Made by a program: the position numbers and the translations under genes
In this document: positions 1,926 through 20,737 of the stretch, one piece after another
Numbering within the stretch: position 1 is the stretch's first letter
How the letters are laid out: each line of letters opens with the position of its first letter
Notes under the pieces: model-generated
Databases searched by the model: none
Told to the model about the DNA's origin: nothing
The model's input: only the letters and a program-made list of their open reading frames with translations
DNA from: Tumebacillus algifaecis
GTDB taxonomy: Bacteria > Bacillota > Bacilli > Tumebacillales > Tumebacillaceae
Direction: 5' to 3'
DNA length: 64,000 bases
Assembly: GCF_002243515.1 (NCBI RefSeq)
Contig: NZ_CP022657.1
Span: 3,953,501 to 4,017,500, forward strand

Positions 1926-4247
1926 ATGTCTACATTCTTGTACAGATTAGGGAAGAAAGCATACGACAAACCCTGGTACTTTATCGTCGGTTGGACCTTG
2001 ATCCTCGGGGTTATCATCGCCGCACTCAGCGTGAATGGCATACACGTAAGTTCTGATATGAAAATTGAGGGCACCAAGTCCCAAAAGGTGCTGGACATGT
2101 TGGCGGAAGAACTTCCGGAAGCTTCTGGCGGACAAGCAAGTGTTGTGTTCACAGTGCCCGAGGGTGAACGTCTGGATTCACCAGAACATTTGACCTCGAT
2201 CAGCAAAGCCGTTAACGAAGTCTACAACATGGACTATGTGATTAATCCCGCCGAAATGGCCGCCAAAGCGGGCGCATCGCTTGCTGGATCTCCTCAGAGC
2301 GCTGGAACCGATCAGGCTACCGCGACTGAACGACCTCCGTACGGCCCCTTGATGGCCAATGGCGTTCCGGTTCCTGGTGTGATCATTTCCTCCGATGGCA
2401 ACATCGCCATGTTCCAATTCCAGTTCACCGTACCGCAGATGTCAGTGCCCAAGACCGTCATCGATTCCGTTATCGAGGCCCTTACTGCCGTTGAGGATGG
2501 CACCGACATTACAGCGTTACCCAGCGACTCGATCAAGGGCAAACCCGCAGTGTTCAGCTCAGCTGAGATTATCGGATTGGTAGTTGCCGCTGTTGTTCTC
2601 TTTATGACGCTTGGCTCAGTTGTTACTGCTGGCCTCCCGCTCCTCACCGGAATCTTGGGTGTTGGCGTTGGCGTTGGCGGAGCTTTTGCGATTTCCAAGT
2701 TCATCAATATTGTTGACATCACTCCTGCCTTGGCCCTCATGGTCGGTCTGGCAGTCGGAATCGACTATGCACTATTCATCGTGAACCGTCAGCGCCGCCT
2801 GATTCTCGAACAGGGGCTGAGCGCACGCGAGGCGGCGAGCAGAGCGATCGGCACTTCTGGCAGCGCAGTATTTTTCGCTGGCTTGACAGTCATCATCGCC
2901 TTGTGTGGCATGCTCGTGATCGGGATTGAATTCTTATCCACGATGGCGTTAGTCGCTGCAGCGACCGTCCTCATCAACGTGTTCATTGCTCTGAGCCTGC
3001 TACCTGCACTGCTCGGTTTGGTCGGTGAGCGGATCTGCTCGCAAAAAGCGCGCGAGAACAGTCGCGTCCATGCGACCAAAGTTCGGCGCGGGGTCGCAAC
3101 GAGCTGGATCAAGGGGATCGTGAAGTATCGTTGGCCCTTAATTGTCGGTGTCATCGCGATTCTCGGTGTGGCGACGATTCCGGTAGCCAATATGGAACTG
3201 GGCATTCCGTCTGGTGCCACAGCGAACTTTGATACGACAGTAAGACAGAGTTACGACGCGATTTCAGATGCTTTCGGGGAGGGATTTAACGGTCCGCTTC
3301 TCTTAGTTGCCGAGCCCAAGGGTTCCGACAAAGTGACAATGGAAATGCTCTACTCTCTGCTTCAAGATCTCCAACAGCAAACTAACGTTGCGCTGGTGAC
3401 ACCGTTGGGCGTCAAGGAGACTGGGGACATGGCCATTCTAAGCCTCATTCCGAAAACGGGACCTACCGACGCAGAGACCAAAAACTTGGTGCAAGACTTG
3501 CGTGATCCCGATTCGAGTATCGCTCAGAAATATGGCCTCACGCTTGGGGTTACAGGGTTCACCGCGATCAACATCGATATGTCGTCCAAGCTAGCGGAGG
3601 TCTTCCCGCTCTATATCGGGGTTATCGTCATCCTCTCGCTCATCATTCTTCTGTTGGTATTCCGATCCATCATCATCCCGATTAAAGCCACGCTCGGCTT
3701 CCTGCTTAGTGTGCTTGCCACGTTCGGGATCACAACAGCTGTGTTCCAGTGGGGATGGCTCCACTCTCTATTCGGCTTTGACACGGGCGGTCCGCTGTTG
3801 AGCTTTATGCCGATCATGGTCACCGGTATACTGTACGGGCTGGCGATGGACTATCAGGTCTTCTTGGTCAGTTCGATGCGCGAGTCGTATGTTCATGGGC
3901 ATCGGGGCGTTGCGAGTGTCGTTCACGGATATGAGCAGGCCAGCCGCGTCGTTGTGGCTGCAGCTGTAATCATGGTCGCCGTTTTCGCCGGGTTCTCCTT
4001 TGCCGAAGATGTGATGATCAAACAGATCGGTTTTGCGTTGGCGGTAGGCATACTGCTCGATGCCTTCATCGTCCGGATCATGTTGGTCCCGGCTGTCATG
4101 GCGATCTTTGGCGACAAAGCGTGGTGGCTACCGCAATGGCTGAACCGTCTGCTACCAAACCTAGACGTCGAGGGTGACAAACTAATCGCCGCTCTTAACG
4201 AAAAAGAAGGCACTGACGATACGTTGAAACCATTGAAGACCCACTGA
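1926..4247 (+). CDS. MMPL/RND-family membrane transporter
   Basis: The 773-residue protein has the duplicated RND fold: TM1 at residues 18-38, a soluble loop to about 215, a bundle of five TM helices to about 365, then a second TM-loop-bundle repeat. Each half carries the MMPL signature with an intramembrane Asp-Tyr (GLAVGIDYALF near residue 280, GLAMDYQVFL near 640). It resembles the YdfJ-type MMPL proteins, which export lipids or hydrophobic drugs using the proton gradient. It follows the TetR gene by 38 bases with an AGGAG ribosome site. The substrate is unknown. The short charged C-terminal tail is cytoplasmic by prediction. Confidence 0.88.
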   Translation: MSTFLYRLGKKAYDKPWYFIVGWTLILGVIIAALSVNGIHVSSDMKIEGTKSQKVLDMLAEELPEASGGQASVVFTVPEGERLDSPEHLTSISKAVNEVYNMDYVINPAEMAAKAGASLAGSPQSAGTDQATATERPPYGPLMANGVPVPGVIISSDGNIAMFQFQFTVPQMSVPKTVIDSVIEALTAVEDGTDITALPSDSIKGKPAVFSSAEIIGLVVAAVVLFMTLGSVVTAGLPLLTGILGVGVGVGGAFAISKFINIVDITPALALMVGLAVGIDYALFIVNRQRRLILEQGLSAREAASRAIGTSGSAVFFAGLTVIIALCGMLVIGIEFLSTMALVAAATVLINVFIALSLLPALLGLVGERICSQKARENSRVHATKVRRGVATSWIKGIVKYRWPLIVGVIAILGVATIPVANMELGIPSGATANFDTTVRQSYDAISDAFGEGFNGPLLLVAEPKGSDKVTMEMLYSLLQDLQQQTNVALVTPLGVKETGDMAILSLIPKTGPTDAETKNLVQDLRDPDSSIAQKYGLTLGVTGFTAINIDMSSKLAEVFPLYIGVIVILSLIILLLVFRSIIIPIKATLGFLLSVLATFGITTAVFQWGWLHSLFGFDTGGPLLSFMPIMVTGILYGLAMDYQVFLVSSMRESYVHGHRGVASVVHGYEQASRVVVAAAVIMVAVFAGFSFAEDVMIKQIGFALAVGILLDAFIVRIMLVPAVMAIFGDKAWWLPQWLNRLLPNLDVEGDKLIAALNEKEGTDDTLKPLKTH

Positions 4248-4610
4248 TGAAGCTCGCAGTTGAGATTCACACAGCGATACGACTTGATTTTTCGTGATGC
4301 TGGGGCTGGAATTGGAAGGTAGGACAGGTTACACATCTCCTTCGCCCTACTTTTTGTCCGCTCAAATCAGGAGCGTTGAGAGAAAACAAAAATAGCACTG
4401 GCATTGGTCTTACCCCTGTCACGTAGTCTGTGCGTAAAAAACCTATGATTTTACGCGGCGATCGCTTTAAGGTACTCTACCGAAGAGCGGTCGCCGAACT
4501 TTTTCTGTAAGCGTCTGTTGTTATCGAACATCTAGAATTTTCAATAAATTACGAAGCTACTTTCGATACCCGAAAATGCAAAGTGTACTTTGGAAGGAGT
4601 GAGGCTGTAC
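4248..4610. other. Intergenic gap, one terminator, no gene seen
   Basis: No coding region is supported in this 363-base gap between the transporter and the HIT gene. It holds the hairpin described at 4456-4505 and an AT-rich stretch upstream of the HIT gene that probably contains its promoter. Confidence 0.5.
4456..4505 (+). terminator. Rho-independent terminator downstream of the MMPL gene
   Basis: Arms CGGCGATCGCT (4456-4466) and AGCGGTCGCCG (4486-4496) pair over 11 positions with one mismatch. They are followed by AAC and five T. It lies about 210 bases after the transporter stop codon. Confidence 0.65.
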
Positions 4611-5027
4611 ATGGAATGCTTGGGATGTCGAATCGCTAACGGTGTGGAACCCGATTTGAACATCGTTTATGAAAATGAGCTAATTACCTGCGTGCTTGAT
4701 ATCGCTCCGTTTAATGAAGGACATATCCTAATTCTTCCGAAAAAACATTACTGGGATGTCGAAGAAATGGATTCAGAGACAGCGTATGCTGTCATGGATG
4801 CTGCGAAAAAAATATCCATCGTCTTAAAGACCCTGTTTAAACCTGACGGAATAAGCACATGTCAAAACGGTGGAAAATTTAACGACCTTACCCATTACCA
4901 CATGCATCTTATTCCAAGGTACGAAGGTGACGGATTTTCTTGGAGTGAACCATTGCACCCGCATGGTGCCGAAAAAAGATTACGCCAAACCAAAGAAAAA
5001 ATTCTCGTAGCACTAAATATTGAATGA
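4611..5027 (+). CDS. HIT-family (histidine triad) hydrolase
   Basis: This 138-residue protein carries the histidine triad HYHMHLIP near residues 95-102; the middle histidine is the expected nucleophile. HIT proteins hydrolyse or transfer nucleotides from dinucleoside polyphosphates or AMP-amino conjugates. The N-terminal C-x-x-C (ECLGCRIANG) resembles the zinc-binding start of bacterial Hit proteins. The start at 4611 is chosen because an AAGGAG site precedes it and the sequence then aligns with family N-termini; an upstream TTG at 4590 is less likely. It stands alone between terminators. Confidence 0.85.
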   Translation: MECLGCRIANGVEPDLNIVYENELITCVLDIAPFNEGHILILPKKHYWDVEEMDSETAYAVMDAAKKISIVLKTLFKPDGISTCQNGGKFNDLTHYHMHLIPRYEGDGFSWSEPLHPHGAEKRLRQTKEKILVALNIE

Positions 5028-5028
5028 A

Positions 5029-5056
5029 GGAGTCTCTAGAGGCTCCTTTTTTATTT
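5029..5056 (+). terminator. Rho-independent terminator of the HIT gene
   Basis: A near-perfect palindrome, GGAGTCTCTAGAGGCTCC, is followed by six T and starts directly after the HIT stop codon. Confidence 0.85.
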
Positions 5057-5517
5057 TGTGGTGAATCAGTTTTAATTCAACGTGTTTTTTAGAAAAACGA
5101 CTTTTCAGAAGACGAATTAGCCACGCATGGTCGAGAAACTATACCACGCCACTGATTGCCTTTTACTTATTTTGGACCATCTAAAGCAGAGGGTCTGTTC
5201 CAGAAAATTTGGATGATCGCCCCTTGAGGACAACATTGAAGGAAGTCCATACTGGCAATACCACTTTTGGAATCGATGATACTCTAAGTCCCCTTTAGTA
5301 CGGATCTTCCATTGTTACTGAGACGGGTTGCAAGATCCACTACATGGAGGCAATGGTCTGACCGCAAAATTTTATGCATGAAGGGAACATGAAGAAAATT
5401 CTATGAAGTCTTATCAGTCATAGGTATCCTAGCAGTACACAGAAACCATGTAACAAAATGAAAGTTCAGACGGTGAGATTTTGTATTTCACACGAAATTA
5501 TGGATTTATTATAACAG
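5057..5517. other. Intergenic gap without supported genes
   Basis: About 460 bases with many stops in all frames. I see no RNA gene, repeat or clear promoter. Confidence 0.4.
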
Positions 5518-5682
5518 TCATTGAAAAATGTGATATATATAGGAAAATAATATCAAAGATGTCGTAAACACCAAAAATCCAATTAGCTTCTTCTTGGTAA
5601 ACAACTTTTCTTGCTCGAAGATACTTTTAAGAATCATAAAACCTACACCTGCAATAATTGCTTGGAATATGCCGTTAGACAT
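5518..5682 (-). CDS. Small membrane protein, 54 residues
   Basis: An ATG at 5682-5680 follows an AAGGGAA ribosome site and opens a 54-codon frame ending TGA at 5518-5520. The product has two hydrophobic segments: residues 5-21 (IFQAIIAGVGFMILKSI) and 34-51 (IGFLVFTTSLILFSYIY). They are separated by a charged Lys-rich turn (EQEKLFTKKK), a hairpin-type topology. I do not recognise it. Good start site, balanced amino-acid use and clean TM pattern argue that it is real. The function is unknown. Confidence 0.55.
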   Translation of the reverse strand: MSNGIFQAIIAGVGFMILKSIFEQEKLFTKKKLIGFLVFTTSLILFSYIYHIFQ

Positions 5683-5872
5683 TCTGTTCCCTTCTTTCTA
5701 TTTTTAAGGACTTGAAAACGTCTCCAAGGACAAGATTCCTTTGACCGCCCTATGCCGAAGCATGTTCAGACTGCATGGTAATCTCGTTTCTAGTAACACT
5801 TAATGTGATATGACCGCGCGAGGATCAGGTGATCATCGTGCTATATTACAACTTCCGAATGGGGGAAACTCT

Positions 5873-6121
5873 GTGCTGCGCAAGGTGAACTTTATTTTAT
5901 CACTCCTAACATCCGGTCTACTTTTTCTATTTTTTATGCAAGTGGACAATACCCATTGGTTGTGGACCAGTAGTGATGGACAGACAGTAAGTATGCAACT
6001 TTCCTTTTTTTCCTGTACCTTATCTTCTGACCTACAATCAAAAACTCTTTATAATTTCGGAGCATACTCCTTACTCTTGTTGGTAGCGACCACCTTGCTC
6101 TCAGTAGTCAAAAAGAAATAG
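5873..6121 (+). CDS. Small membrane protein, 82 residues
   Basis: The preferred start is GTG at 5873 behind a GGGGGAAA site; an upstream ATG at 5810 would add 21 unlikely residues. The protein begins VLRKVNFILSLLTSGLLFLF, a TM helix or uncleaved signal. It has a polar middle with Trp and Cys residues and ends with a second TM helix (YSLLLLVATTLLSVV) and a Lys-rich cytoplasmic tail. Unrecognised family. It faces away from the 54-residue membrane protein at 5518-5682 and may share a divergent promoter region with it. Confidence 0.55.
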   Translation: MLRKVNFILSLLTSGLLFLFFMQVDNTHWLWTSSDGQTVSMQLSFFSCTLSSDLQSKTLYNFGAYSLLLLVATTLLSVVKKK

Positions 6122-11593: not shown

Positions 11594-12055
11594 CTAAGGC
11601 GCTAACGCTGATTCGATCCCGTATGATTTAAGATCATCTCCACTGAGTTTGTAATATCTGTTTTCGTAAAATAAATACGTGGCCTGCCCTTTGGGATAAA
11701 CAAGAAGTTCGGCAGAAGTTTGTTTTTTGTTGTATTCCATTCCTTCTCGGGACGTTGAAAGGACAATTTTGTAAGGGTACGTATTTATGCCCTTCACTTC
11801 ACTTGTCTCTGATGCCTTAGCTAGGGTTAGTACGATACCTCGGATAATGTCTCCTTTCAATTCCACGAGTGACTCCTTGTAAGTACCATCCTCACCAAGT
11901 TTGTACACTTGGACATGATCGAGATAGTCAAATTGCATATCATAGGTTTTGTTGATAGCCACCTCCAAATCTGATTTTAGAGGTGATGAGTCGCTGCATC
12001 CAAGAACGAAAATTGCGGTGAAAAGCAGTAAAACCGTCTGGAAGCTAATTCGCAT
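11594..12055 (-). CDS. Putative lipoprotein, 153 residues
   Basis: The start ATG at 12055 has a strong GAAGGAGGGG site; an upstream ATG at 12112 would run through the terminator hairpin of the preceding gene. The N-terminus MRISFQTVLLLFTAIFVLGC is a lipoprotein signal with lipobox VLGC and lipidated Cys20. The mature part is hydrophilic, with beta-strand-like alternation and no motif I recognise. It follows the secreted-protein gene at 12120-12971 on the same strand, separated by a terminator. Outer-face membrane anchoring is expected. Confidence 0.75.
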   Translation of the reverse strand: MRISFQTVLLLFTAIFVLGCSDSSPLKSDLEVAINKTYDMQFDYLDHVQVYKLGEDGTYKESLVELKGDIIRGIVLTLAKASETSEVKGINTYPYKIVLSTSREGMEYNKKQTSAELLVYPKGQATYLFYENRYYKLSGDDLKSYGIESALAP

Positions 12056-12073
12056 TTTACTCCCCTCCTTCGA

Positions 12074-12110
12074 GATAAAAATGAAAGAGAGTGGAAGCCC
12101 GCTCTCTTTC
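12074..12110 (-). terminator. Terminator after the secreted-protein gene
   Basis: GAAAGAGAG (12083-12091) and CTCTCTTTC (12102-12110) pair perfectly. The minus-strand tail is ATTTTTATC. It starts 10 bases after the stop codon at 12120. Confidence 0.85.
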
Positions 12111-12119
12111 AACTTTAAC

Positions 12120-12971
12120 TTAGCAAGAGTAATCGTGCCACCACTTCACATACAATCCCCAAGATCCCGTTGGCCAAATGTATGAAAGAATCTCTGGATT
12201 TGGCTCGGGAACTTGAACAATAGCATGATACTTATTCGCGGTGTTAGTGTCAGCAAATACCGCCTGATAACGGAATGCACAGGATCCGCAATTATAGGCA
12301 CTCACACATTTGGTATAATCACGTGCAGGATTCCAATCCGCAGAACCACCAGCATAATGAGCTGTTGCATGATAACCTTGATTTAGGAAAATCGTCTGAA
12401 GTTCAGGTAGAGAGTAGAACCAATATAACGTTTGGCGCGGTGGGCACGGATGTGGATTGTCAGTATCCCCTCCACAACCACCATTTGCATCTGGTTGTAT
12501 CACACCAAAGTTCGTGTTTTGTACTACCGGCGGTGCGTTCTTCCCCTCAGCAAGATAGTAGAAGTAATCATTAAAGCTTCCTTCGAAATCATCTGAAAAC
12601 TCCACTTCCGCCATGGTCTTACCAGAAGCAATTTCCGTGATCATGCGATTTTGTTCCTGAAAGTATTTTTCAGCAGTTTGAATCGAACTTTTCGGGACTT
12701 TAGCTGCTTTTGCTGCAACAATGTCTACGGTAACAATATTATCTTCATTCAATGATACATAAGGCATGACACTGCTTAATTGTTCATCAATCTGTTTTCC
12801 TTTTTCTCTCTGCTCACTTGTTTGTTTCTTCTTTAGTTTTGACTGTTCTGTAACAAATTGGGATTTCGAAAAATTATCGTTTGAGGCTAGGGTGAGTTGA
12901 CTTTGACTGCTGAAACTTATCATTCCTGACAGCAAAATCGCCAAAGTAATACTAGAGATTATTTTTTTCAT
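12120..12971 (-). CDS. Secreted protein of unknown function with Cys-rich C-terminus
   Basis: ATG at 12971 follows GGAAGGAGGG and opens MKKIISSITLAILLSGMISF, a signal peptide of about 30-35 residues. The 283-residue product has a Lys/Gln-rich coiled stretch after the signal (KLKKKQTSEQREKGKQIDEQ). A middle domain follows, then a Trp/Tyr/Cys-rich C-terminal half with clustered cysteines (GGCGGDTDNPHPCPP; CVSAYNCGSC; final residue Cys) that probably form disulfides. No catalytic motif is recognised. AT-rich codon use differs from the housekeeping genes and fits an accessory origin. Confidence 0.75.
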   Translation of the reverse strand: MKKIISSITLAILLSGMISFSSQSQLTLASNDNFSKSQFVTEQSKLKKKQTSEQREKGKQIDEQLSSVMPYVSLNEDNIVTVDIVAAKAAKVPKSSIQTAEKYFQEQNRMITEIASGKTMAEVEFSDDFEGSFNDYFYYLAEGKNAPPVVQNTNFGVIQPDANGGCGGDTDNPHPCPPRQTLYWFYSLPELQTIFLNQGYHATAHYAGGSADWNPARDYTKCVSAYNCGSCAFRYQAVFADTNTANKYHAIVQVPEPNPEILSYIWPTGSWGLYVKWWHDYSC

Positions 12972-13139
12972 GATAAACCCTCCTTCCAACATATAGTAAC
13001 TCATAATTTCCATATTGCAAATATAATATATTATTTTCATTATTATTTTACCGAAATGCAAAAGCCGTAATGGGTTATATCACCTCATGGTAGACAAGAG
13101 AAAAAGGACATCGATAAGTTGGATCTATCCTTGTTGAAC

Positions 13140-13525
13140 CGAGGGGATTTCATGTAAAAAATTGGAACAAAGAATAATCGTTACAGTATCGAGATCAAGC
13201 AAGTTGGAGGCTGCCCAACTTGTGTTGGAAGAGGGGATGAGTTACCGTGCAGTTGCGCGAACGTCTTCGACCTCCTGCGCGGCCAGATCACTTTAACTCC
13301 ATTGAAGAAGAACTTGAGTACTACAAAATGGAGAATGCCTAATTAAAAAACGGAATCCAAATCTACATAGGGAAGGAAGTTGGGAAAATCGGGGCGGTTT
13401 AAGTGTTCCGTGAGTTGAACTAACAATTTACGACCGATGCTCCGAATCAGGTCTGGATGGCTGACATCACCTACGTCCCGACCAACGAAGGTTGGCTGTA
13501 TGTGGCCAGCATCATGTGACTTGTG
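13140..13525 (+). mobile_element. IS3-family transposase remnant
   Basis: Pieces of both IS3 frames survive in shifted order. An OrfA start-like segment reads SSKLEAAQLVLEEGMSYRAV (about 13195-13256, helix-turn-helix type). A segment EEELEYYKMENA lies at 13305-13340. An OrfB integrase-core piece reads DAPNQVWMADITYVPTNEGW at about 13437-13494, followed by LYVASIM. Most of OrfB including the catalytic Glu region is missing, and frames and stops do not connect. No terminal inverted repeats were found. The remnant lies directly left of CRISPR array 2. Confidence 0.75.
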
Positions 13526-13637
13526 CACGCGAAAAATCGTGGGGTTCTAGGCTGATGAACGTATGACAAAAGGCCTTGTCCTACGAACGTTAGACCAAGC
13601 CTACAAACGTGAGAAGCCGACGACACCCGTCCTTCAC

Positions 13638-13972
13638 CATTCAGTCCCCTATCCATCGGGTCTGCCATTGTTACCTCTTTGTCGGAGCGGACTTCGGGCT
13701 GTTCGTGCTCGGCTTTCAGTCCCCTATATAACGGGTCTGCCATTGGTACAACCTTAGCGATCTGAGCATCCATGGAGTCCACAATGTACTTTCAGTCCCC
13801 TATCCATCGGGTTTGTCATTGTTACGACCAGCAATTATTAATACTGCGGTACATTTTCATGATTTCAGTCCCCTATCCATCGGGTCTGCCATTGTTACTA
13901 CGTGAAACAAATATGGACGCTGTGTTAATCGAGATCTTTCAATCCCCTAACTTACGGGTCTGTCATTGGTAC
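13638..13972 (-). CRISPR. CRISPR array 2: five 37-bp repeats, four spacers
   Basis: Repeats at 13638-13674, 13713-13749, 13789-13825, 13862-13898 and 13936-13972, with spacers of 36-39 bp. The repeat is the same type as array 1. Its central bases vary (three units carry TATCCATCGGG, one TATATAACGGG, one TAACTTACGGG on the plus strand), while the flanking pairing segments stay constant. The shared leader lies on the right, so minus-strand transcription is inferred. Spacers show no resemblance to each other by eye. Confidence 0.85.
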
Positions 13973-14170
13973 CGACCGAATCGGCCATCGAAAAGCCGAG
14001 GCGTGGCAAGCCTTCCCGCCATTTCTGATACCGACTGGCTTCGGCTTTTTTTCGAGGATCGACTTTTTGCACGAAAACAGGGGGGAATCCTCGAAAAGGT
14101 CACTTCTTGATGCTATGATTCCCACTCACAGTATACCGCATTCGATCCTTGGGAAGAATATCTAAGTTTT
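13973..14170 (-). promoter_or_regulatory. CRISPR leader of array 2
   Basis: Homologous to the array 1 leader. It starts CGACCGAATCGGCCATCGAA and carries TTCGAGGATC at 14051-14060 with ATCCTCGAA at 14087-14095, and the same minus-strand TATACT-containing box (CAGTATACCGCATTC near 14130). A plus-strand CGGCTTTTTTT after an AAAGCCGA arm could also stop transcription coming from the left. Confidence 0.65.
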
Positions 14171-14231
14171 TCTCTCCATCATCCCACGGCACGGCTGGCA
14201 GAAGTCGAAAATAGCGTATAACGATCTACCT

Positions 14232-14414
14232 CTACCTGCGCTGGTCCTTTTTTCTTTTGCCAGTTGACAGGATCATCCTGACGATGATCCAGGTTATGGT
14301 AGCCCCGATGCCGGAGTACGTAAGCTCACCGGTAAACCAGTAATGCGATACCGTCCAAGCTACGCCAAATGCGAGCCCGCCAGCAAGCGCGATGTAAAAT
14401 TCCTTCCAATTCAT
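14232..14414 (-). CDS. Small membrane protein, 60 residues
   Basis: ATG at 14414 follows GAGGTGAG. The product has two TM helices (YIALAGGLAFGVAWTVSHYW and YSGIGATITWIIVRMIL) and a strongly basic tail ending GKRKKDQRR that should stay inside the cell. No family is recognised. It lies alone to the right of CRISPR leader 2. Confidence 0.6.
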   Translation of the reverse strand: MNWKEFYIALAGGLAFGVAWTVSHYWFTGELTYSGIGATITWIIVRMILSTGKRKKDQRR

Positions 14415-14724
14415 CTCCTCACCTCATCTTATGGATACCATCAACTTACAAAAGTTGCAAGCAATACCTTTCGCCCGCTCATCCAAAACAAATCTGTCGC
14501 ACGCCCTTCCCGTGCGATCATTGATACCCCACACTGCTTAACTGACCGATCTTCTTCCGAGCAGAAAAGGGCAACCCAATGGATTGCCCGACGATGATAC
14601 TTCAATAGATCTATTCTCTCTCCATTGCTTCTGCACCCTCTTATTTAGAAAGAACAGACCCACTCTGCATTCCGAATTCCCCAGTTCTGCCATCGGGCCA
14701 CAATCAACTGCTCACGCGCCCCGC
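14415..14724. other. Intergenic gap with terminator, no gene seen
   Basis: Besides the hairpin at 14565-14589 I see no supported feature in this 310-base gap. Confidence 0.4.
14565..14589 (-). terminator. Terminator downstream of the S9 peptidase gene
   Basis: GGGCAA (14569-14574) pairs with TTGCCC (14584-14589), extended by two inner G-C pairs, and the minus strand continues TTTTC. It lies about 280 bases after the peptidase stop, beyond the tandem repeats. Confidence 0.6.
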
Positions 14725-14878
14725 TACTCTTCCTACAAACTACTCTTCCTACAAACTACTCTTCCTACAAACTACTCTTCCTACAAACTACTCTTCCTAC
14801 AAACTACTCTTCCTACAAACTACTCTTCCTACAAACTACTCTTCCTACAAACTACTCTTCCTACAAACTACTCTTCCT
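14725..14878. repeat. 16-bp tandem repeat, nine full copies plus part
   Basis: The unit TACTCTTCCTACAAAC is repeated without a mismatch from 14725 to 14868, and ten further bases match. The S9 peptidase stop codon (TAG, 14868-14870) lies at the edge of the last unit, so the array begins exactly at the 3' end of the gene. A perfect array like this is likely to vary in copy number between strains. Confidence 0.95.
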
Positions 14879-16598
14879 GTACAGACCTCAGCGCGTCATC
14901 GAAAAATTGGGCGCCTTTGCCGATCCATGCACAGATGTTGCTGCGATTGCGAATGGTATGACCTTCTCCTGCTAAGACATACAGTTCATGCCCATGACCA
15001 CCAAGTTTTTCAAACTGAACGTTCACATCTGCAAGCGGTAACTGCAAGTCGTGTTCACCGTGCACTTGCAGGATCGGAAAGTCAGGTGTCCATAACTCAC
15101 CTTCAACTGACGGTTCCAACTCTTCACTTGTAAAGGCGTACTCGGCAAAGCGGCGGACGACAGGATCGCGGCTGTTCTTGAGCACCGTGACATTCAAATA
15201 CGAACTCATGATCAACAGCGCCCCGACCTCATCTCCGAGTGCTTGCGCGGTACGAGTCGCGAGATACCCACCGTAGCTCTCCCCGTACAGCCCGATCTGT
15301 ACAGGGCTGGCCCATGAACGGTTGATCGCCTCACGAATGCAATCGATCACATCCAGTACATCCAACTTCCCAAATTCACCCGGTTTTAGCGGCGGCAACG
15401 GCCAATTGCGCACCGTGCTTCCGCGCGGATTGACGAGGATGACTCGCATCCCCAGACTCTGCAACAGTTGAATCCACGGCGACCAAGAGATGTCCCATGC
15501 TCCTGAAGGCCCGCCGTGCAACAAGAAGACGGCCCGCTTCTGCTCTTTTGCTGGCGGATAGACCAGACAGGGCACCGCATATCCCCGCTCCGTTTCGATG
15601 CCGATCACTTCTGGGGGAGCCGTTTGCGAAAAGTCCTGTTGACGCGTCAGGCACTGGAGTTCATTTTGCTCCGGTTGCCAGCGATACAGGGCAGGCGGCT
15701 GTTGACTGCTTGCTACTTTAAAATATAGTGCACCTTCTCGCCAGCGCGGGATCGAATGTGCAACTCCCGGCAACAGGTCGAACGGAACGACTTCTTTGCT
15801 TTCCAGATGATAGGTGGCAAATCGCGTCCCCGGCCATTCATCCAGTGTCAGCAAAAGCGACCGTCCATCCGGATTCCAGATCGGTGCTTCTGCGAGCAGC
15901 GGCAAATTCAATCGAACGTGCTCCCCGCTCTCCACCTCGATCTGCACGGCATCTAAGCGCCTGCCCACACGCACCAAACAGATCAAGGCGGATTCTTCCA
16001 GATTCCATTGGGCGGAGACCGGCGTCATGTTGCCTTCCCCGCTCAACAAAACGCGCGAGCTTTTTGTCTCCGGGTCGCAAAGCACCAACTCGGTATATGG
16101 ACCTGTCGTTTTTCGCGTCACGATGATGGCGCGGCGGCGTGGTGCGACCGCCACATAGAGTTGGTCCGCTTTTTGTTCGTTCGGCAAATCGAGCAGCTCA
16201 ATCGGCTCCTCGTCGTTGCGATGATGGACCAGCACCAACTTTTGCTGTCCGTCCGCGTTGACCCGCAGGCCAACGATATGCTCTTCGCCGTAGACGCTCG
16301 GTTGGATCGGATAGGTCAGCGGGGCCAGCGCTGGCAAATGTTCGGTCTGGGTGTTCAAATCATGACAGACCACTTGGTAGCCATTTTCCGTATGTTCGAG
16401 GAAACCGACAAACTGAGACGTCCCAAATGGGTACATCTGATGTGTGGAGCGCTCGACCATTGGCGTATCGGTCGCATGTATATAGACGCGGCTCCCGTGC
16501 TGCGTATTGCACCCGAGCAACAGGGTCCCGTCCGTCGTAAAAGAAAAATGCTGGAGCCAAACTGCCTTTTCCAGCTTCTCTAAGTAGTTAGGGATCAT
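14868..16598 (-). CDS. S9-family (prolyl oligopeptidase-type) serine peptidase
   Basis: The 576-residue protein has an N-terminal beta-propeller-like region (about 10-330) and a C-terminal alpha/beta hydrolase domain. The triad is visible: Ser in GESYGG (near 440), Asp in HGEHDLQLP (near 517), His in GEGHTI (near 544). The oxyanion strand is HGGPSGAW. The start at 16598 has GAGGTG seven bases upstream. The peptidase follows a terminator after the precursor gene at 16676-16762, so it may be read by leak-through or its own promoter. In the RiPP context it could trim or inactivate the peptide; this is inference. No signal peptide is seen, so it is cytoplasmic. Confidence 0.85.
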   Translation of the reverse strand: MIPNYLEKLEKAVWLQHFSFTTDGTLLLGCNTQHGSRVYIHATDTPMVERSTHQMYPFGTSQFVGFLEHTENGYQVVCHDLNTQTEHLPALAPLTYPIQPSVYGEEHIVGLRVNADGQQKLVLVHHRNDEEPIELLDLPNEQKADQLYVAVAPRRRAIIVTRKTTGPYTELVLCDPETKSSRVLLSGEGNMTPVSAQWNLEESALICLVRVGRRLDAVQIEVESGEHVRLNLPLLAEAPIWNPDGRSLLLTLDEWPGTRFATYHLESKEVVPFDLLPGVAHSIPRWREGALYFKVASSQQPPALYRWQPEQNELQCLTRQQDFSQTAPPEVIGIETERGYAVPCLVYPPAKEQKRAVFLLHGGPSGAWDISWSPWIQLLQSLGMRVILVNPRGSTVRNWPLPPLKPGEFGKLDVLDVIDCIREAINRSWASPVQIGLYGESYGGYLATRTAQALGDEVGALLIMSSYLNVTVLKNSRDPVVRRFAEYAFTSEELEPSVEGELWTPDFPILQVHGEHDLQLPLADVNVQFEKLGGHGHELYVLAGEGHTIRNRSNICAWIGKGAQFFDDALRSVQEE

Positions 16599-16623
16599 GG
16601 TTCTCACCTCTTTGTGATTTATA

Positions 16624-16667
16624 CAAAAAGGAAAGGATGAGATCGGAATTCCGACCCCATCCTTTCC
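16624..16667 (-). terminator. Terminator or attenuator between precursor and S9 peptidase
   Basis: GGAAAGGATG (16630-16639) and CATCCTTTCC (16658-16667) pair perfectly, with a second inner palindrome TCGGAATTCCGA. The minus strand then has TTTTTG. It starts 9 bases after the precursor stop codon and would cut down transcription into the peptidase gene. Confidence 0.9.
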
Positions 16668-16675
16668 CCCAGTTC

Positions 16676-16762
16676 TTAGAGGTACTCAACCGGTTTCAGC
16701 ACGTCAAATTCTTCCATGAGCTCTTCCATTTGCTCTGCAGTCAGTTGTTCTTTGTTCATCAT
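16676..16762 (-). CDS. Candidate RiPP precursor peptide, 27-28 residues
   Basis: Two adjacent ATGs (16762-16760, 16759-16757) follow a perfect GGAGGTGATA ribosome site. The second start gives better spacing. The peptide is Glu-rich, with the central part TAEQMEELMEEFDVLK, two Glu-Glu pairs, and the end PVEYL. It has no Cys, Ser or His; its only Asn is near the N-terminus. It lies between the E1-like enzyme gene (stop 29 bases upstream) and a strong terminator, the usual position for a precursor. In pantocin A biosynthesis a ThiF/E1-like enzyme cyclises a Glu-Glu pair in a peptide of similar length, so the Glu-Glu pairs are the likely reaction site. Unlike microcin C-type precursors it does not end in Asn. 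Expression and modification are not shown. Confidence 0.72.
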   Translation of the reverse strand: MMNKEQLTAEQMEELMEEFDVLKPVEYL

Positions 16763-16790
16763 TATCACCTCCTTTCAATGGGATGGAAGG

Positions 16791-17861
16791 TTACTTAGTC
16801 GCACAATTGATACAGGATGGATGTTTGGTCAGCGGTTCTACGCGAAACTCCATGTTCGTATCGAATTTCCAACAAGCGTTCACCGTGACTGGTTTCTCAT
16901 AACCGCTCAGAAAGCGCATCACTTCAAATCCCGCCACACCACTGACGATCGCAGGGAAACTTACGACACTGCCCACCGTGCGTTCAAAGAGGAAGTCGCC
17001 TTGATTGAGGATCGTGTCCATAAGGTTCGGGTACTTGTCCGTGCGGAAGGTGAACTCGCAGAGTGGACAAGCCTGATCCGAATCTGGCACCGCAAGCGGT
17101 CCGACTTGACCCCCGATCGTAAACAGGTATGGCACTTTGGCTTGCGTACATGCTTCGGAGATCCATTTTGTGATCAGAAAGACCGGTTTATCGGCGCATC
17201 CGAGCACAAGGTCCACGCCGTCCAAATGTGGCAGGAGATCCTCCGGCCCCGTCACGAATTGGGGAATGGCTTCCACTTTCGTGTGCGGCGAGAATTCTTT
17301 GGCATACGCAACCGCGCAATCGACCTTCAATTTCCCCGCATCTGCTGGCTTGTACATCGCCGTGCGGTTCAGGTTGGAAACTTCCACATGGTCCCCGTCG
17401 AGCAGTACGATGTGCCCGATGCCCAGACCCAACAATTGTGTGGTCATCCAACTACCCATGCCGCCGACCCCGACCACCAACACTTTCGAGTGACGAATCC
17501 GTCGCATATATTCGTAGCGGTTGGTCTCCTCCGTCTCGTAGCGGGAGAGATAATCCATCATCCGCGTCCAACGCCCAACTTCTTCCGCGGTCAGCTCATG
17601 CTCCACATCCATGTCCTCAAAGAATCCCAGTTCCAGGAGTCGATCAAAATGGGGCTTGAACGTGTCCCAACTCGTCGGGTGCTGTTCTTCTGTCACCTGC
17701 CGAAAATGGTCTTCCGAACCGCCAGCGATCCAGTGCTTCACACAATGATGAAGAGCATCGTTGTTTGGTGTGATCACGACCATTTCATCGTTCAAGCGAA
17801 GGACGAAATGTTGTCCTTTCGAGAGAACATTGACTTGTTCCCGTAGTCGTACCCTTTTCAC
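16791..17861 (-). CDS. E1/ThiF-like adenylating enzyme with N-terminal recognition-type domain (RiPP)
   Basis: The preferred start is GTG at 17861 behind GGAAGGGG; upstream in-frame ATG (17879) and TTG (17894) lack good sites. About the first 95 residues resemble the small winged-helix peptide-recognition domains of RiPP enzymes. The ThiF fold follows, with nucleotide loop GVGGMGSW and the acidic/Asn-Arg motif LLDGDHVEVSNLNR. Two CxxC pairs (CPLC, CINC) complete a structural zinc site at the C-terminus. The length and split fit MccB/PaaA-type enzymes, which activate a peptide carboxylate with ATP. It lies between an MFS exporter and a Glu-rich 28-residue peptide. E1 fold is firm; the exact reaction is inferred. 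Confidence 0.85.
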   Translation of the reverse strand: MKRVRLREQVNVLSKGQHFVLRLNDEMVVITPNNDALHHCVKHWIAGGSEDHFRQVTEEQHPTSWDTFKPHFDRLLELGFFEDMDVEHELTAEEVGRWTRMMDYLSRYETEETNRYEYMRRIRHSKVLVVGVGGMGSWMTTQLLGLGIGHIVLLDGDHVEVSNLNRTAMYKPADAGKLKVDCAVAYAKEFSPHTKVEAIPQFVTGPEDLLPHLDGVDLVLGCADKPVFLITKWISEACTQAKVPYLFTIGGQVGPLAVPDSDQACPLCEFTFRTDKYPNLMDTILNQGDFLFERTVGSVVSFPAIVSGVAGFEVMRFLSGYEKPVTVNACWKFDTNMEFRVEPLTKHPSCINCATK

Positions 17862-17894
17862 ATCGCTACCCCTTCCCATGTAATGTGACTGCAA

Positions 17895-19142
17895 TTAGCG
17901 CGCTTCGCGCACCGCTTTTTGAGAGGTGATGAAAACGCCCGCTGCGACCAGCACGAAGGCCGCCACAATCAACACTTTGCCCACGCCGTAGCTGGCAGCC
18001 AGCCCCCCCATGACCAAGATACAGAAGGGGATCAGTGCCGATGCTACCGATTGGATCGCCGAGAAAACGCGACCTCTAAACTGCGGATCGATGCATTGCT
18101 GCACATACGTATTGACGCTGATCGCCGCAGCACCGGAAGGAATGCCCATCAAGAAGAAGGCGATGACCATGATCCAAGTCGATGTCGTCATCCCGATGAT
18201 GATCAACATCGCACCTTGCAGGAACAGGTTGAGGCAGAAGACCAAGCCTCTTCTGTTGTTCAGACCAAACCGTCGGACGATCGTAATTCCGATGACGCTG
18301 CCGAGTGAGAAAAACCCGATTAAGATCGCAAAGAGCTTCGCATTTTGCCCGTTCGCGGCGAGCAAGATCGGCAACAGATAGTACATCGACAGCATGACGC
18401 CTTCCAAGATCGGCAACACGAGAAACTGTGGGCCCAGCACAGGTTCACGCAGCAGAAAGCGAAGTCCTGCCCACGCATCTTTCCAGATGCTGCTGCGTTC
18501 AGCCCGCTCCTTGGGGGCGATATTCTTCACGCTCTTCAGTTGCTTGATCATCTTTTGCACCATGACGGCCGAGAAAAGGAACGTCACCGCATCGATGGAT
18601 AAGATCCATTCAATACTGATAAAGGGAAGCAACATTCCGGCTAATGCAGGACCGATGACACGGACGACAGTAGCGCTTGACATGTACCAAGCATTCATCC
18701 GCATCAATTGTTCCTTGTCATCTCCGGCAATCTCTGGCATCAGGGTCTGTACGGACGGGTTGAACATCAACCCGGCCAGCCCGATCAGCGCGGTGACCGC
18801 ATAGATCACCCACAGATTTGGCTCCATAAACAGGAGCATCAGTACGAGCGCGCCCGAGATGGCAGCTCGTGACAGATCGGTGATCAACAGCAGTTTCGAG
18901 CGATCGAAGCGATCGACGATAGCCCCTGCGAACAAAGCCGCAAGCGCCATCGGCAATGCCATTGCGATACCCAAACCTGCTTGACTATAAGCACTGCCAA
19001 ACGCCTCGTGGACGAACCAGATCATCCCGACCTGATGCAAGTCATCTCCCAGCCAGGAGACGATCTGCCCGATCAATAAGAACTGGAACACCGTCGAGAG
19101 GGCAAGCATTTTATTAAGAGTTGATACTCGATTAACCTTAAT
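17895..19142 (-). CDS. MFS transporter, probable exporter/immunity of the RiPP locus
   Basis: Twelve TM helices and the MFS loop motif (GAIVDRFDRSKLL near residue 70) are clear. The central cytoplasmic loop is basic. The first ATG (19109) has no ribosome site. The frame is open further up, and an ATT codon at 19142-19140 lies 10 bases after GGAGG, adding 11 residues (IKVNRVSTLNK) that look like a normal cytoplasmic MFS N-terminus. ATT starts are rare, so either is possible. The stop lies 33 bases before the E1-like gene start. Pantocin-type loci also pair the E1 enzyme with an MFS protein that gives resistance or export. Confidence 0.82.
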   Translation of the reverse strand: MKVNRVSTLNKMLALSTVFQFLLIGQIVSWLGDDLHQVGMIWFVHEAFGSAYSQAGLGIAMALPMALAALFAGAIVDRFDRSKLLLITDLSRAAISGALVLMLLFMEPNLWVIYAVTALIGLAGLMFNPSVQTLMPEIAGDDKEQLMRMNAWYMSSATVVRVIGPALAGMLLPFISIEWILSIDAVTFLFSAVMVQKMIKQLKSVKNIAPKERAERSSIWKDAWAGLRFLLREPVLGPQFLVLPILEGVMLSMYYLLPILLAANGQNAKLFAILIGFFSLGSVIGITIVRRFGLNNRRGLVFCLNLFLQGAMLIIIGMTTSTWIMVIAFFLMGIPSGAAAISVNTYVQQCIDPQFRGRVFSAIQSVASALIPFCILVMGGLAASYGVGKVLIVAAFVLVAAGVFITSQKAVREAR

Positions 19143-19194
19143 GGCAGTATCACCTCCGGGAATTACAGGTTAATATATTGTATTTTCTGACTTA

Positions 19195-19230
19195 ATTATA
19201 GCACTGTCGTTTTGTTTTTGTATAGATTAA
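19195..19230 (-). promoter_or_regulatory. Probable promoter of the RiPP operon
   Basis: A consensus TATAAT lies on the minus strand at 19200-19195, about 55 bases before the ATT/GGAGG start region. The -35 is weak (TATACA at 18-base spacing). From here to about 19490 the sequence is AT-rich with no supported gene. Confidence 0.5.
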
Positions 19231-19489
19231 TCAACAAAATTACAAAAATATTTTTTGATTATTTGGGTTTTGTTGTTCTAATATATTGATCCTTCCAATT
19301 AGGAAATATATAAATGCTCATTTGTTCTCTTGTTTTCTCTGTTTTTCTCATTTTTCTAGCTCCACCCAAAAAGCTCCTGACGATTTCGCTCGAGTTTCGT
19401 TTGGAAGACGTTACTGTTTTGTCCAGAGTTTAACTGGGGTATATTTCCAATACGATGTCTGCTCGATTTTTCTCATCCATGATTTTTAC

Positions 19490-19535
19490 TTTATCAAATA
19501 AAAAACCCTTGAGCTTTATAAAAAGCTCAAGGGTT
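19490..19535 (-). terminator. Terminator of the yknWXYZ-type operon
   Basis: AACCCTTGAGCTTT (19504-19517) and AAAGCTCAAGGGTT (19522-19535) form a perfect 14-bp stem, followed on the minus strand by TTTTTTATTTG. It ends 15 bases after the permease stop. Confidence 0.95.
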
Positions 19536-19549
19536 GGTGTTGTCGTCGA

Positions 19550-20737
19550 TCACTCATACCGCAACGATTCAATCGGTTGCATCCGTGCTGCTTTATTTGC
19601 TGGGTACAGACCAAAGAAGATTCCGACTGCGGCGGAGAATGCAAACGCCAGCAAAATCGTCCCCCACGAGACGAGGAACGGCCATCCGGTCGCGAGGGAG
19701 AAGATCCCTGCTGCGAACAGGCCGAGCAAGGTGCCGATCAGTCCGCCGAAGAAGCAGAGGATCACCGCTTCCACCAAAAACTGGCGCATGATCATCCCTG
19801 GCGTGGCACCGATCGCTTTGCGAATACCGATCTCACGGGTGCGCTCAGTCACGGAGACGAGCATGATGTTCATCACACCGATCCCGCCGACCAGAAGCGA
19901 GATGCCCGCAATCGATCCGATGATCGTCTGCATGACATTAAAAGCTGACTTGACCGCCTCTTGCGTCTCTTCACCCGTTTGCGCGATGTAGTTGGCAACC
20001 GCTGTGTTGTGACGCTTGGCGAGCAGTTTTTTCACCGCTTTGACCTGTTCGCGCACCAGCGTTTCGTCCTTTTCCACCGCTTTAGCCTGAATGTATTGGA
20101 CATCCCGCACATCGCCCGCTCCCGGCAAGGCGCCGATCGGCAGGAAAGCATTGTACACTTTCCCACCCAGACCTGAGAGCAGTGATTCTTCCGGTTTGTA
20201 CACACCGACGATGCGGTAGATGCTGCTGTTCAAGGTCACTTTCTTGTTCATCGCGGCGGCGGCCGAACCGAATACCTCTTCCGCATACTTCGCTTCAACG
20301 ACCAGCGACTTCTGGCGCGAACGCTCCTCGCCTGAGCTGAAAAAGCGGCCCGCCACCATCTTCAAATTGTTGATTTTCGGATAGTCGGCATGCGTGCCGT
20401 TGAGCATGAAGTTGACCGTATCTTTGCCCTTTTTCGACTCGGCGGGAAGGGTCAGCAGCCCGACCACCGCGTCGATGCCCTTGAGACGCTTGATCTGCTC
20501 GACATCATCGACCGTCAAGCCGCCCGTCTCCCCTTGGCTTTGCGGGATGACGAGGAACGAACCTTCCGCCACTTGCCCGAGTTCACTGACCAGCGACGAT
20601 TTGCCCGCCTGACCGATCGACACGACGGCGATGACCGCCGCCACCCCGACCACGATCCCGATGATCGTGAGGAACGAGCGCATTTTGTTGACCCGCACAT
20701 TTTCCAGTGCCAACAGGATGCTCTCCCATAGATTCAT
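19550..20737 (-). CDS. yknZ: ABC transporter permease, MacB/YknZ-type
   Basis: The 395-residue protein has the MacB topology: TM1 at about 20-45, a large extracytoplasmic domain (about 50-270), then three TM helices (near 280, 330, 365) with the FtsX-type coupling motif [20 protein letters not shown]. The ATG overlaps the end of the ATPase gene by four bases, so translation is coupled. In B. subtilis YknWXYZ protects against the SdpC toxin. Order and content here match yknW-X-Y-Z. The terminator follows directly. Confidence 0.88.

Follow-up and report, generated by a model that had tools for sequence, protein, structure and literature searches.

A run of four genes on the minus strand of the Tumebacillus algifaecis genome raises the question of what a ThiF/E1-like enzyme modifies when it is encoded between an exporter and a very short open reading frame (ORF). 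The run (19142 to 14868) lies in the window, the whole stretch of 64,000 nucleotides analysed here (assembly GCF_002243515.1, contig NZ_CP022657.1, positions 3,953,501 to 4,017,500 of the forward strand; coordinates below are window positions), and consists of a major facilitator superfamily (MFS) exporter, the E1/ThiF enzyme, an ORF of 28 codons and an S9 peptidase. A preliminary description had placed these genes at 14868-19200, where all four were found on the minus strand, and had read them as a pantocin-like locus for a ribosomally synthesised and post-translationally modified peptide (RiPP). The RiPP part of that reading stood, with an E1 enzyme carrying a RiPP recognition element (RRE), an MFS protein and a real small ORF, whereas the assignment to the pantocin family did not. 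The product is very probably a RiPP of the ThiF/E1-like adenylyltransferase (TLAT) kind, and the locus as a whole is probably an accessory RRE-ThiF cluster with the gene roles set out below. We read it in this way because an RRE-E1 enzyme with ATP/Mg residues, a peptide gene that looks real, an MFS exporter and an S9 peptidase stand in one run.

The open frame of the enzyme begins at 17894 and has 367 residues; its probable start is the GTG at 17861 behind GGAAGGGG, which gives a protein of 356 residues and a gap of 33 nt to the MFS gene. Pfam recognised the ThiF domain only and did not detect the recognition domain, and none of the 22 NCBIfam models listed for the enzyme reached its cut-off (the best, ThiF, had 90.9 of the required 275 bits). 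PaaA of the pantocin A pathway was the first sequence match in the PDB, followed by MccB and MoeB (2.3e-17). The AlphaFold2 model, made with 22 aligned sequences (mean predicted local distance difference test score, pLDDT, 86.7; predicted TM-score 0.82), folds the first 95 residues into four strands, three helices and one strand. MccB aligned structurally over residues 13-365 (Z 31.4, root-mean-square deviation 4.9, 331 aligned) and PaaA over residues 18-358 (Z 28.9, deviation 3.7, 311 aligned), whereas MoeB and ThiF structures aligned only from about residue 99 (MoeB 99-365). Foldseek placed MccB at the head of its list, with a slightly higher TM-score for PaaA. Since MccB and PaaA align end to end and MoeB and ThiF only with the second part, the enzyme has, according to its model, the RRE-plus-E1 architecture. 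The N-terminal RRE-type domain of the preliminary description, missed by Pfam, is thus clear in the predicted structure, and the CxxC pairs that it had reported are both present: C276, C279 and C361 were invariant and C364 nearly so in the 22-sequence alignment, which includes the window enzyme. R177, K190 and D235 are spaced as Arg167, Lys180 and Asp225 of EnfB, named as ATP/Mg residues in the available part of PMC12250964. R177 and K190 were invariant and D235 nearly so among the 22 sequences, and the protein would accordingly be an active adenylyltransferase and not a docking domain. A viral structure library gave 16 matches at E<=0.001 with query-length TM-scores of at most 0.45, no named one being a RiPP enzyme, and a phage collection gave two weak matches, in Moraxella phages.

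The peptide gene begins 28 nt behind the enzyme gene. The preliminary description had noted a Glu-rich peptide with a perfect site, and its ribosome-binding site AAAGGAGGTGAT indeed matches the anti-Shine-Dalgarno sequence over 12 nt, which is longer than at any ORF of 15-60 aa in a 400-kb sample of the genome, 5 kb of which was masked. There, 13 entries, corresponding to 12 distinct ORFs, had a match of at least 9 nt and none had more than 10. The codon score of the peptide was 0.725 per codon. Fragments of real genes averaged 0.24 (standard deviation 0.21, n = 540), and overlapping open frames in intergenic DNA averaged -0.15, with 0.05% of these 4067 frames scoring as high as the peptide. 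Only 0.2% of the real-gene fragments reached this value, so the Glu-rich composition supplies part of it. Between 13900 and 19700 neither strand has another ORF of 6-90 aa behind a good Shine-Dalgarno (SD) site, defined as 6 nt or more in the motif list used; the peptide itself appears twice there, with either of its two ATGs as start. A hairpin adjoins the gene; the 83-nt stretch that contains it had a minimum free energy of -36.5 kcal/mol (z -5.66), matched by none of 200 shuffles. The consensus scan did not list the hairpin. The hairpin is probably a terminator that is partly read through into the S9 gene. Because of the 12-nt SD match, the codon score, the adjoining hairpin and its position as the sole small ORF with a good SD site, we take the peptide gene as probably real, judging from sequence. 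Seven of the 28 residues are Glu, and four of them form the EE pairs 13-14 and 17-18; counted from the second Met, the latter pair is 16-17. Neither pair precedes Asn (EEF). The peptide ends in Leu28 and contains no Trp, no Cys and no terminal Asn, and its single proline stands in LKPVEYL.

To see the enzyme among its relatives, genomes of increasing distance are best taken in turn. Matches at E<=1e-14 were present in five of the seven genomes of its own family (its own included; the others 28-32% identical), matches at 1e-17 in 33 of 398 genomes of the class and matches at 1e-10 in 274 of 398 of the phylum, where many are probably housekeeping enzymes and short core stretches reach 41% identity. 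A single-sequence scan of genome contigs gave six pattern matches and no relatives. A profile-guided scan found 378 relatives and was reduced to the best 80; the nearest by E-value were 27-34% identical and came from Buchananella, Solirubrobacterales metagenome-assembled genomes (MAGs) and Tumebacillus permanentifrigoris. Loci with related enzymes, 28 in all (20 from one locus set and 8 of the best 80 relatives), were surveyed for short ORFs. In 18 of the 28 (17 of 27 when L070/L094 is counted once), the 600 nt upstream of the enzyme gene contained an ORF of 15-45 aa with a good SD site, and the same was seen for 6 of 172 other ORFs of at least 200 aa in these loci; related species are not independent in these counts and the controls include mechanical ORFs. 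The upstream ORFs formed the families MKIKxKKVEKL..., MSVKVKKTSKKAAVLYSFLG and MKKxxEVKxxxxxxKxGSC, and in a Streptococcaceae MAG (L112) the short ORF MKNVKVRKAEKVDATAWWIII had the marks of enterofaecin, a WWIII end behind a VRKA leader. As most related loci have such upstream ORFs, the family to which the window enzyme belongs acts largely in RiPP pathways.

Nine loci from genomes of the same class, in some cases also of the same family (L066, L068, L069, L072, L074, L078, L079, L081 and L083), carried one to three MKIKxKKVEKL-type peptides of about 20 aa with a related ThiF enzyme. Several also had a partner of about 400 aa, which in L072 gave weak matches to M50 peptidases and PqqD, below the cut-offs.

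The MFS gene has its first ATG at 19109, and its probable start is an ATT at 19142 (19140-19142), 11 codons upstream behind GGAGGTGAT, by eye. An MFS gene also stood beside a related ThiF gene in four of eight annotated plasmid loci, the other four having a MATE, no, an ABC and a DMT (drug/metabolite transporter) exporter, and MFS genes adjoin the ThiF gene in four further loci (L065, L070, L101 and L107).

The S9 peptidase had no evident signal sequence by eye and is therefore read as cytoplasmic. Its triad Ser444, Asp520 and His550 is in place, with motifs assigned by eye, and its PDB relatives were acylaminoacyl-releasing enzymes (best) and prolyl oligopeptidases (POPs). The structure model from a two-sequence alignment (pLDDT 42.5) was too poor to judge an N-terminal beta-propeller. 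At E 1e-10 no match was found in the six other genomes of the family, and 24 of the 398 class genomes matched at 1e-12 (own included), the best at 29% identity. An assignment as a lasso isopeptidase was tried and rejected, as no match to NF033523 was obtained at E 0.001. The lasso isopeptidase AtxE2 is of S9 type. POP-type enzymes are known to take short peptides only, and a 28-mer would fit this limit. The S9/POP enzyme FlaP is described in the available part of PMC10885120 as a RiPP leader peptidase that cuts after Pro and is efficient only on the modified peptide, and a POP was proposed as likely in the myxarylin pathway (PMC12951456, as far as available).

A second locus with this set of genes was found in Oceanobacillus sp. 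J11TS1 (L111, 4340-10030), where a peptide, an acyl carrier protein, a ThiF enzyme, an acyltransferase-like protein, an MFS protein and an S9 peptidase are encoded one after another. The peptide is an ORF of 22 aa, MKFEIEETVELVEASKSSDTAC, behind the site GGTGGTGAT; it is acidic and ends in Cys. The acyltransferase-like protein scored 18.4 bits, below the Pfam cut-off, and the S9 peptidase, which has the same triad, matched NF033523 with 21 bits against a cut-off of 400. Both loci thus have a short acidic peptide, a ThiF enzyme of the same kind, an MFS protein and an S9 peptidase in one run. L111 differs in that the peptide is encoded upstream and ends in Cys and in the additional acyl carrier protein and acyltransferase-like genes; the ThiF enzymes are about 20-25% and the S9 peptidases 22% identical. 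L111 possibly makes a lipidated thiolactone RiPP.

By analogy, the window cluster would work in the following way. The RRE would bind the acidic N-terminal part of the 28-mer, and the E1 domain with ATP would adenylate a carboxylate. This could be the C-terminal one of Leu28, modelled on EnfB and IndF, which act on their C-terminal Ile; the alternative is activation of Glu side chains as in PaaA. Activation at the C-terminus rather than at Glu is our tentative choice, held at slightly less than an even chance. An internal nucleophile (a backbone amide, Lys23 or Tyr27) would then attack and yield a cyclised or imide C-terminus with a mass change of -18 Da. The S9 peptidase would next remove the leader, possibly after the only proline (LKP/VEYL), and the MFS protein would carry the small product out of the cell. 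With the hairpin between the peptide and S9 genes, the S9 transcript would be less abundant than that of the precursor. For the S9 enzyme a role as maturation protease is somewhat favoured over one in immunity; a function as isopeptidase or in immunity is possible but not favoured.

Chemistry of the pantocin type would share this frame and overlap with the reading above. Two adjacent glutamates (E17-E18) would be activated to give a bicyclic core, which S9 would release. PaaA is the best PDB sequence match, and the second EE pair, counted from the second Met, is at the position of the Glu pair 16-17 of PaaP (available part of PMC12250964). However, with seven Glu among 28 residues, EE pairs readily arise by chance. 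The pantocin A precursor model TIGR04310 did not match the window peptide, even with E values of up to 1 admitted, and scored 64.4 bits with the precursor of a Vibrio plasmid locus, so that the positive control works. The Vibrio locus has the order precursor, ThiF, 2-oxoglutarate (2OG)-Fe(II) oxygenase and DMT transporter. The window cluster has only MFS, ThiF and S9 beside the peptide; a PaaB-type 2OG-Fe(II) oxygenase and the EamA/DMT exporter PaaC are absent, as is EEN. The cluster as a pantocin A pathway was therefore rejected on precursor, oxygenase and exporter, and the layout of pantocin A, which the preliminary description had seen reproduced here, was not recovered. Pantocin-type chemistry is unlikely. 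A peptide nucleotide like microcin C, with an MccB-type enzyme, an MccC-type MFS protein and S9 providing self-immunity in place of MccF/MccG, is improbable, even if MccB tops the Foldseek and VIA lists and ThiF is paired with MFS. MccC is an MFS protein. Immunity by a peptidase is known in the class, according to the accessible part of PMC9239234. The peptide ends in Leu and not in Asn, which bears out the argument of the preliminary description against the microcin C type, and no MccD/E/F/H/S-like gene is among the four.

The small ORF could also be the leader peptide of an attenuator of the S9 gene, with the enzyme acting on something else. The order of short ORF, terminator hairpin and S9 gene is an attenuator layout too, but the unit contains no other candidate substrate for the RRE enzyme, the coding score and the SD site are strong and no run of one regulatory codon is seen, so this explanation is quite improbable. 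Very improbable is a housekeeping or defence E1 (ThiF/MoeB, or ubiquitin-like conjugation). The E1 domain would agree with it, and PADLOC E1-E2 models matched, albeit with the Rossmann part only. Against it stand the sub-cut-off NCBIfam scores, the RRE domain of the predicted structure, the lack of Ubl, E2, JAB, ThiS or MoaD among the four genes and three further PF00899 genes elsewhere in the genome. The tree of 43 rows bears on several of these alternatives. The window enzyme formed a long branch, which joined a Streptomyces plasmid enzyme (L085) at 84/87 with a long-branch warning; the neighbours of L085 are a HEXXH peptide-modification protein, an MFS protein, a TldD-like protease and LanB. 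The PaaA-like rows L105 and L218 formed a separate pair at 100/100, as did MccB and L142, which speaks against both the pantocin and the microcin C alternatives. The free tree left the enzyme outside the housekeeping ThiF/MoeB rows, so the clustering with these raised in the preliminary description did not appear there. The approximately unbiased (AU) test rejected no joining (PaaA p 0.167, MccB p 0.063, housekeeping rows p 0.167). As none of the three is rejected, the tree alone decides nothing and is not used as proof; the housekeeping grouping is disfavoured because of the RRE domain and the low equivalog scores.

Several points weigh against a TLAT RiPP cluster with S9 maturation. The position in the tree depends on a long branch and, as said, the AU test leaves all three joinings standing. 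No close orthologue of the enzyme was present among the genomes sampled, and a homologue of the peptide was not found there either. The search with the peptide gave its own copy and one chance match (E 2.25) in the seven family genomes and ten matches at E<=0.5, its own included, in the 398 class genomes; three of the nine foreign ones were inspected (L235, L236 and L241) and had no good-SD short ORF at the match, and no ThiF, MFS or S9 match lay closer than about 1.5 kb in any of the nine loci. The window peptide matches none of the leader families of the relatives. Its gene lies downstream of the enzyme, whereas the short ORFs of the relatives lie upstream; a downstream one within 300 nt was seen only in the locus L070/L094. 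Among 171 loci, many of which are short or contain housekeeping enzymes, an S9 match (E 1e-6) was found only in L111 besides the window's own copies, so the link of ThiF and S9 is rare. The L111 peptide has no Pro, so that cleavage after proline is not a shared rule, and its GGTGGTGAT start site is not counted as a good SD site by the scan.

The features of the locus are collected in the table. The MFS, ThiF, peptide and S9 genes would be read as a single transcript, bracketed by the stem-loops at 19535-19504 and 14589-14569. Terminator-like sites were in excess over shuffles in the consensus scan (15 compared to 5.5). Promoter-like sites were not (3 in the region, mean of 4.4 in shuffles), and the promoter candidate is therefore weakly supported.

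Table. Features of the four-gene locus in the window.
Feature	Position	Strand	Evidence
Terminator-like stem-loop behind the upstream macB-type gene	19535-19504		consensus scan
Candidate sigma-A promoter of the unit, TATACA-18-TATAAT, TG before second hexamer	19195..19224	-	consensus scan, 10/12 matches
MFS exporter (MFS_1/MFS_3)	17895..19142	-	Pfam MFS_1 1.5e-35, MFS_3 2.4e-26
RRE-fused ThiF/E1-like adenylyltransferase (TLAT)	16791..17861	-	Pfam ThiF 9.2e-41; phmmer PaaA 2.2e-21, MccB 2.2e-17; start by eye
Predicted RRE-type winged-helix domain at the N-terminus, residues 12-96 (numbered in the 367-residue frame)	17607..17861	-	AlphaFold2 model, structural alignment
Ribosome-binding site of the peptide, AAAGGAGGTGAT	16764..16775	-	12-nt anti-Shine-Dalgarno match
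Probable precursor peptide MMNKEQLTAEQMEELMEEFDVLKPVEYL, 28 aa (27 aa from second ATG)	16676..16762	-	anti-SD match, coding score, only good-SD small ORF in 5.8 kb
Stem-loop 16666-16631 with U5 at 16629-16625	16625..16666	-	16-bp stem, tetraloop; begins nine bases past the peptide stop
S9 (prolyl oligopeptidase-type) serine peptidase	14868..16607	-	Pfam Peptidase_S9 1.2e-14; ATG alternative 16598
Terminator-like stem-loop closing the unit, behind S9	14569..14589	-	consensus scan

Two congeners aligned to the window from 19552 upward with 79-80% identity over 4.0-4.6 kb, up to the ends of the fetched stretches. The match breaks off at 19552, the end of the macB-type gene, and none of the window genes below 19550 was matched within about 15 kb past the breakpoint in either congener. 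Because the similarity to both congeners ends at this point, the cluster sits, by this sequence comparison, in a variable (accessory) part of the genome. The G+C content of the three large cluster genes was 0.53-0.55 with a window mean of 0.534, and at third positions it was 0.62-0.69 compared to 0.73 in two flanking genes. As the former is near the mean and the latter only somewhat lower, the base composition does not clearly point to recent transfer.

The end of the S9 gene is overlapped by a 16-bp tandem repeat of 9.7 perfect copies (14724-14878), each unit of which repeats, on the minus strand, the S9 end including its stop codon, GGAAGAGTAG. Further away, five direct repeats of 39 nt with a spacing of 73-76 nt and a diverged last copy resemble a CRISPR array (13639-13975). 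A protein of 313 aa at 12120-13061 is probably secreted, by eye, and has Cys in its C-terminal part; it had no match in Pfam, NCBIfam or PADLOC at E 0.001. The Rfam scan of 12000-20500 gave no match.

Other RiPP-like loci were observed in the same genome. A run of peptides of about 30 aa with good SD sites, MERKLVMELPYFNDIRKGLVMHTHEYIDIRKK and variants (five seen), is followed by an uncharacterised nucleotidyltransferase (PF14907) and an MFS_3 exporter (L234, 2697000-2712000, at 5237-6114 and 2648-5154; L209 at 2237-2774) and forms a second, different RiPP-like cluster. Another stretch (L231, 2634000-2648000) contains YcaO, a protein with two nitroreductase stretches, an ABC-type ATPase (by eye) and a ThiF-like protein, in which NxxR and the Lys are, by eye, apparently lost; it is probably an azole/thiopeptide-type RiPP cluster.

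Among the known TLAT systems, pantocin A (PaaP/PaaA/PaaB/PaaC) shares with the window cluster the RRE-ThiF enzyme and a precursor of about 30 residues with EE pairs. The window differs by the negative TIGR04310 result, the missing EEN core and oxygenase, an MFS in place of the EamA/DMT exporter and the added S9 peptidase. Microcin C (MccA/MccB/MccC) shares the RRE-ThiF fold, which came first in the structural lists, and the MFS exporter, but the window peptide has no C-terminal Asn and 28 aa instead of 7, and none of the immunity or tailoring genes known from microcin C accompanies it. A precursor of 19 aa is given for the microcin C analogue of B. amyloliquefaciens in the available part of PMC12250964. 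With enterofaecin (EnfB) and indolylamide (IndF) the cluster has in common the RRE-ThiF enzyme, an exporter and a short precursor that ends in a branched aliphatic residue. The Ind cluster also has a peptidase, of M16 type, whereas that of the window is S9. The enterofaecin type has a (V/I)RKA leader (same source and part); the window peptide has neither this leader nor a WW core, its gene lies downstream and its exporter is MFS. Likewise, neither a Trp near a C-terminal Ile nor an M16 peptidase was present as in the indolylamides, and neither a C-terminal Cys nor radical SAM enzymes in the cluster as in the GRC type. FlaP-type S9 peptidases of class III/IV lanthipeptides and AtxE2 resemble the window enzyme as S9-family peptidases in RiPP pathways, but the partner pathways differ. 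The open-licence literature gave no paper joining ThiF, prolyl oligopeptidase, RiPP and biosynthetic gene cluster, and none among the matches listed linked ThiF with an S9 family peptidase and a precursor peptide. A 2025 review, in its available part, states that ThiF-like enzymes occur in numerous uncharacterised RiPP pathways. Such enzymes are known to make phosphoramidates, the bicycle of pantocin, thiolactones, indolylamides and imides. To these the window cluster adds, with only four genes, a precursor that has neither Trp nor Cys nor terminal Asn, and a peptidase of the S9 type, which the accessible parts of the literature compared do not name for this enzyme class. In conclusion, the locus is likely an ordinary kind in a new version, a TLAT RiPP cluster with an S9 peptidase.

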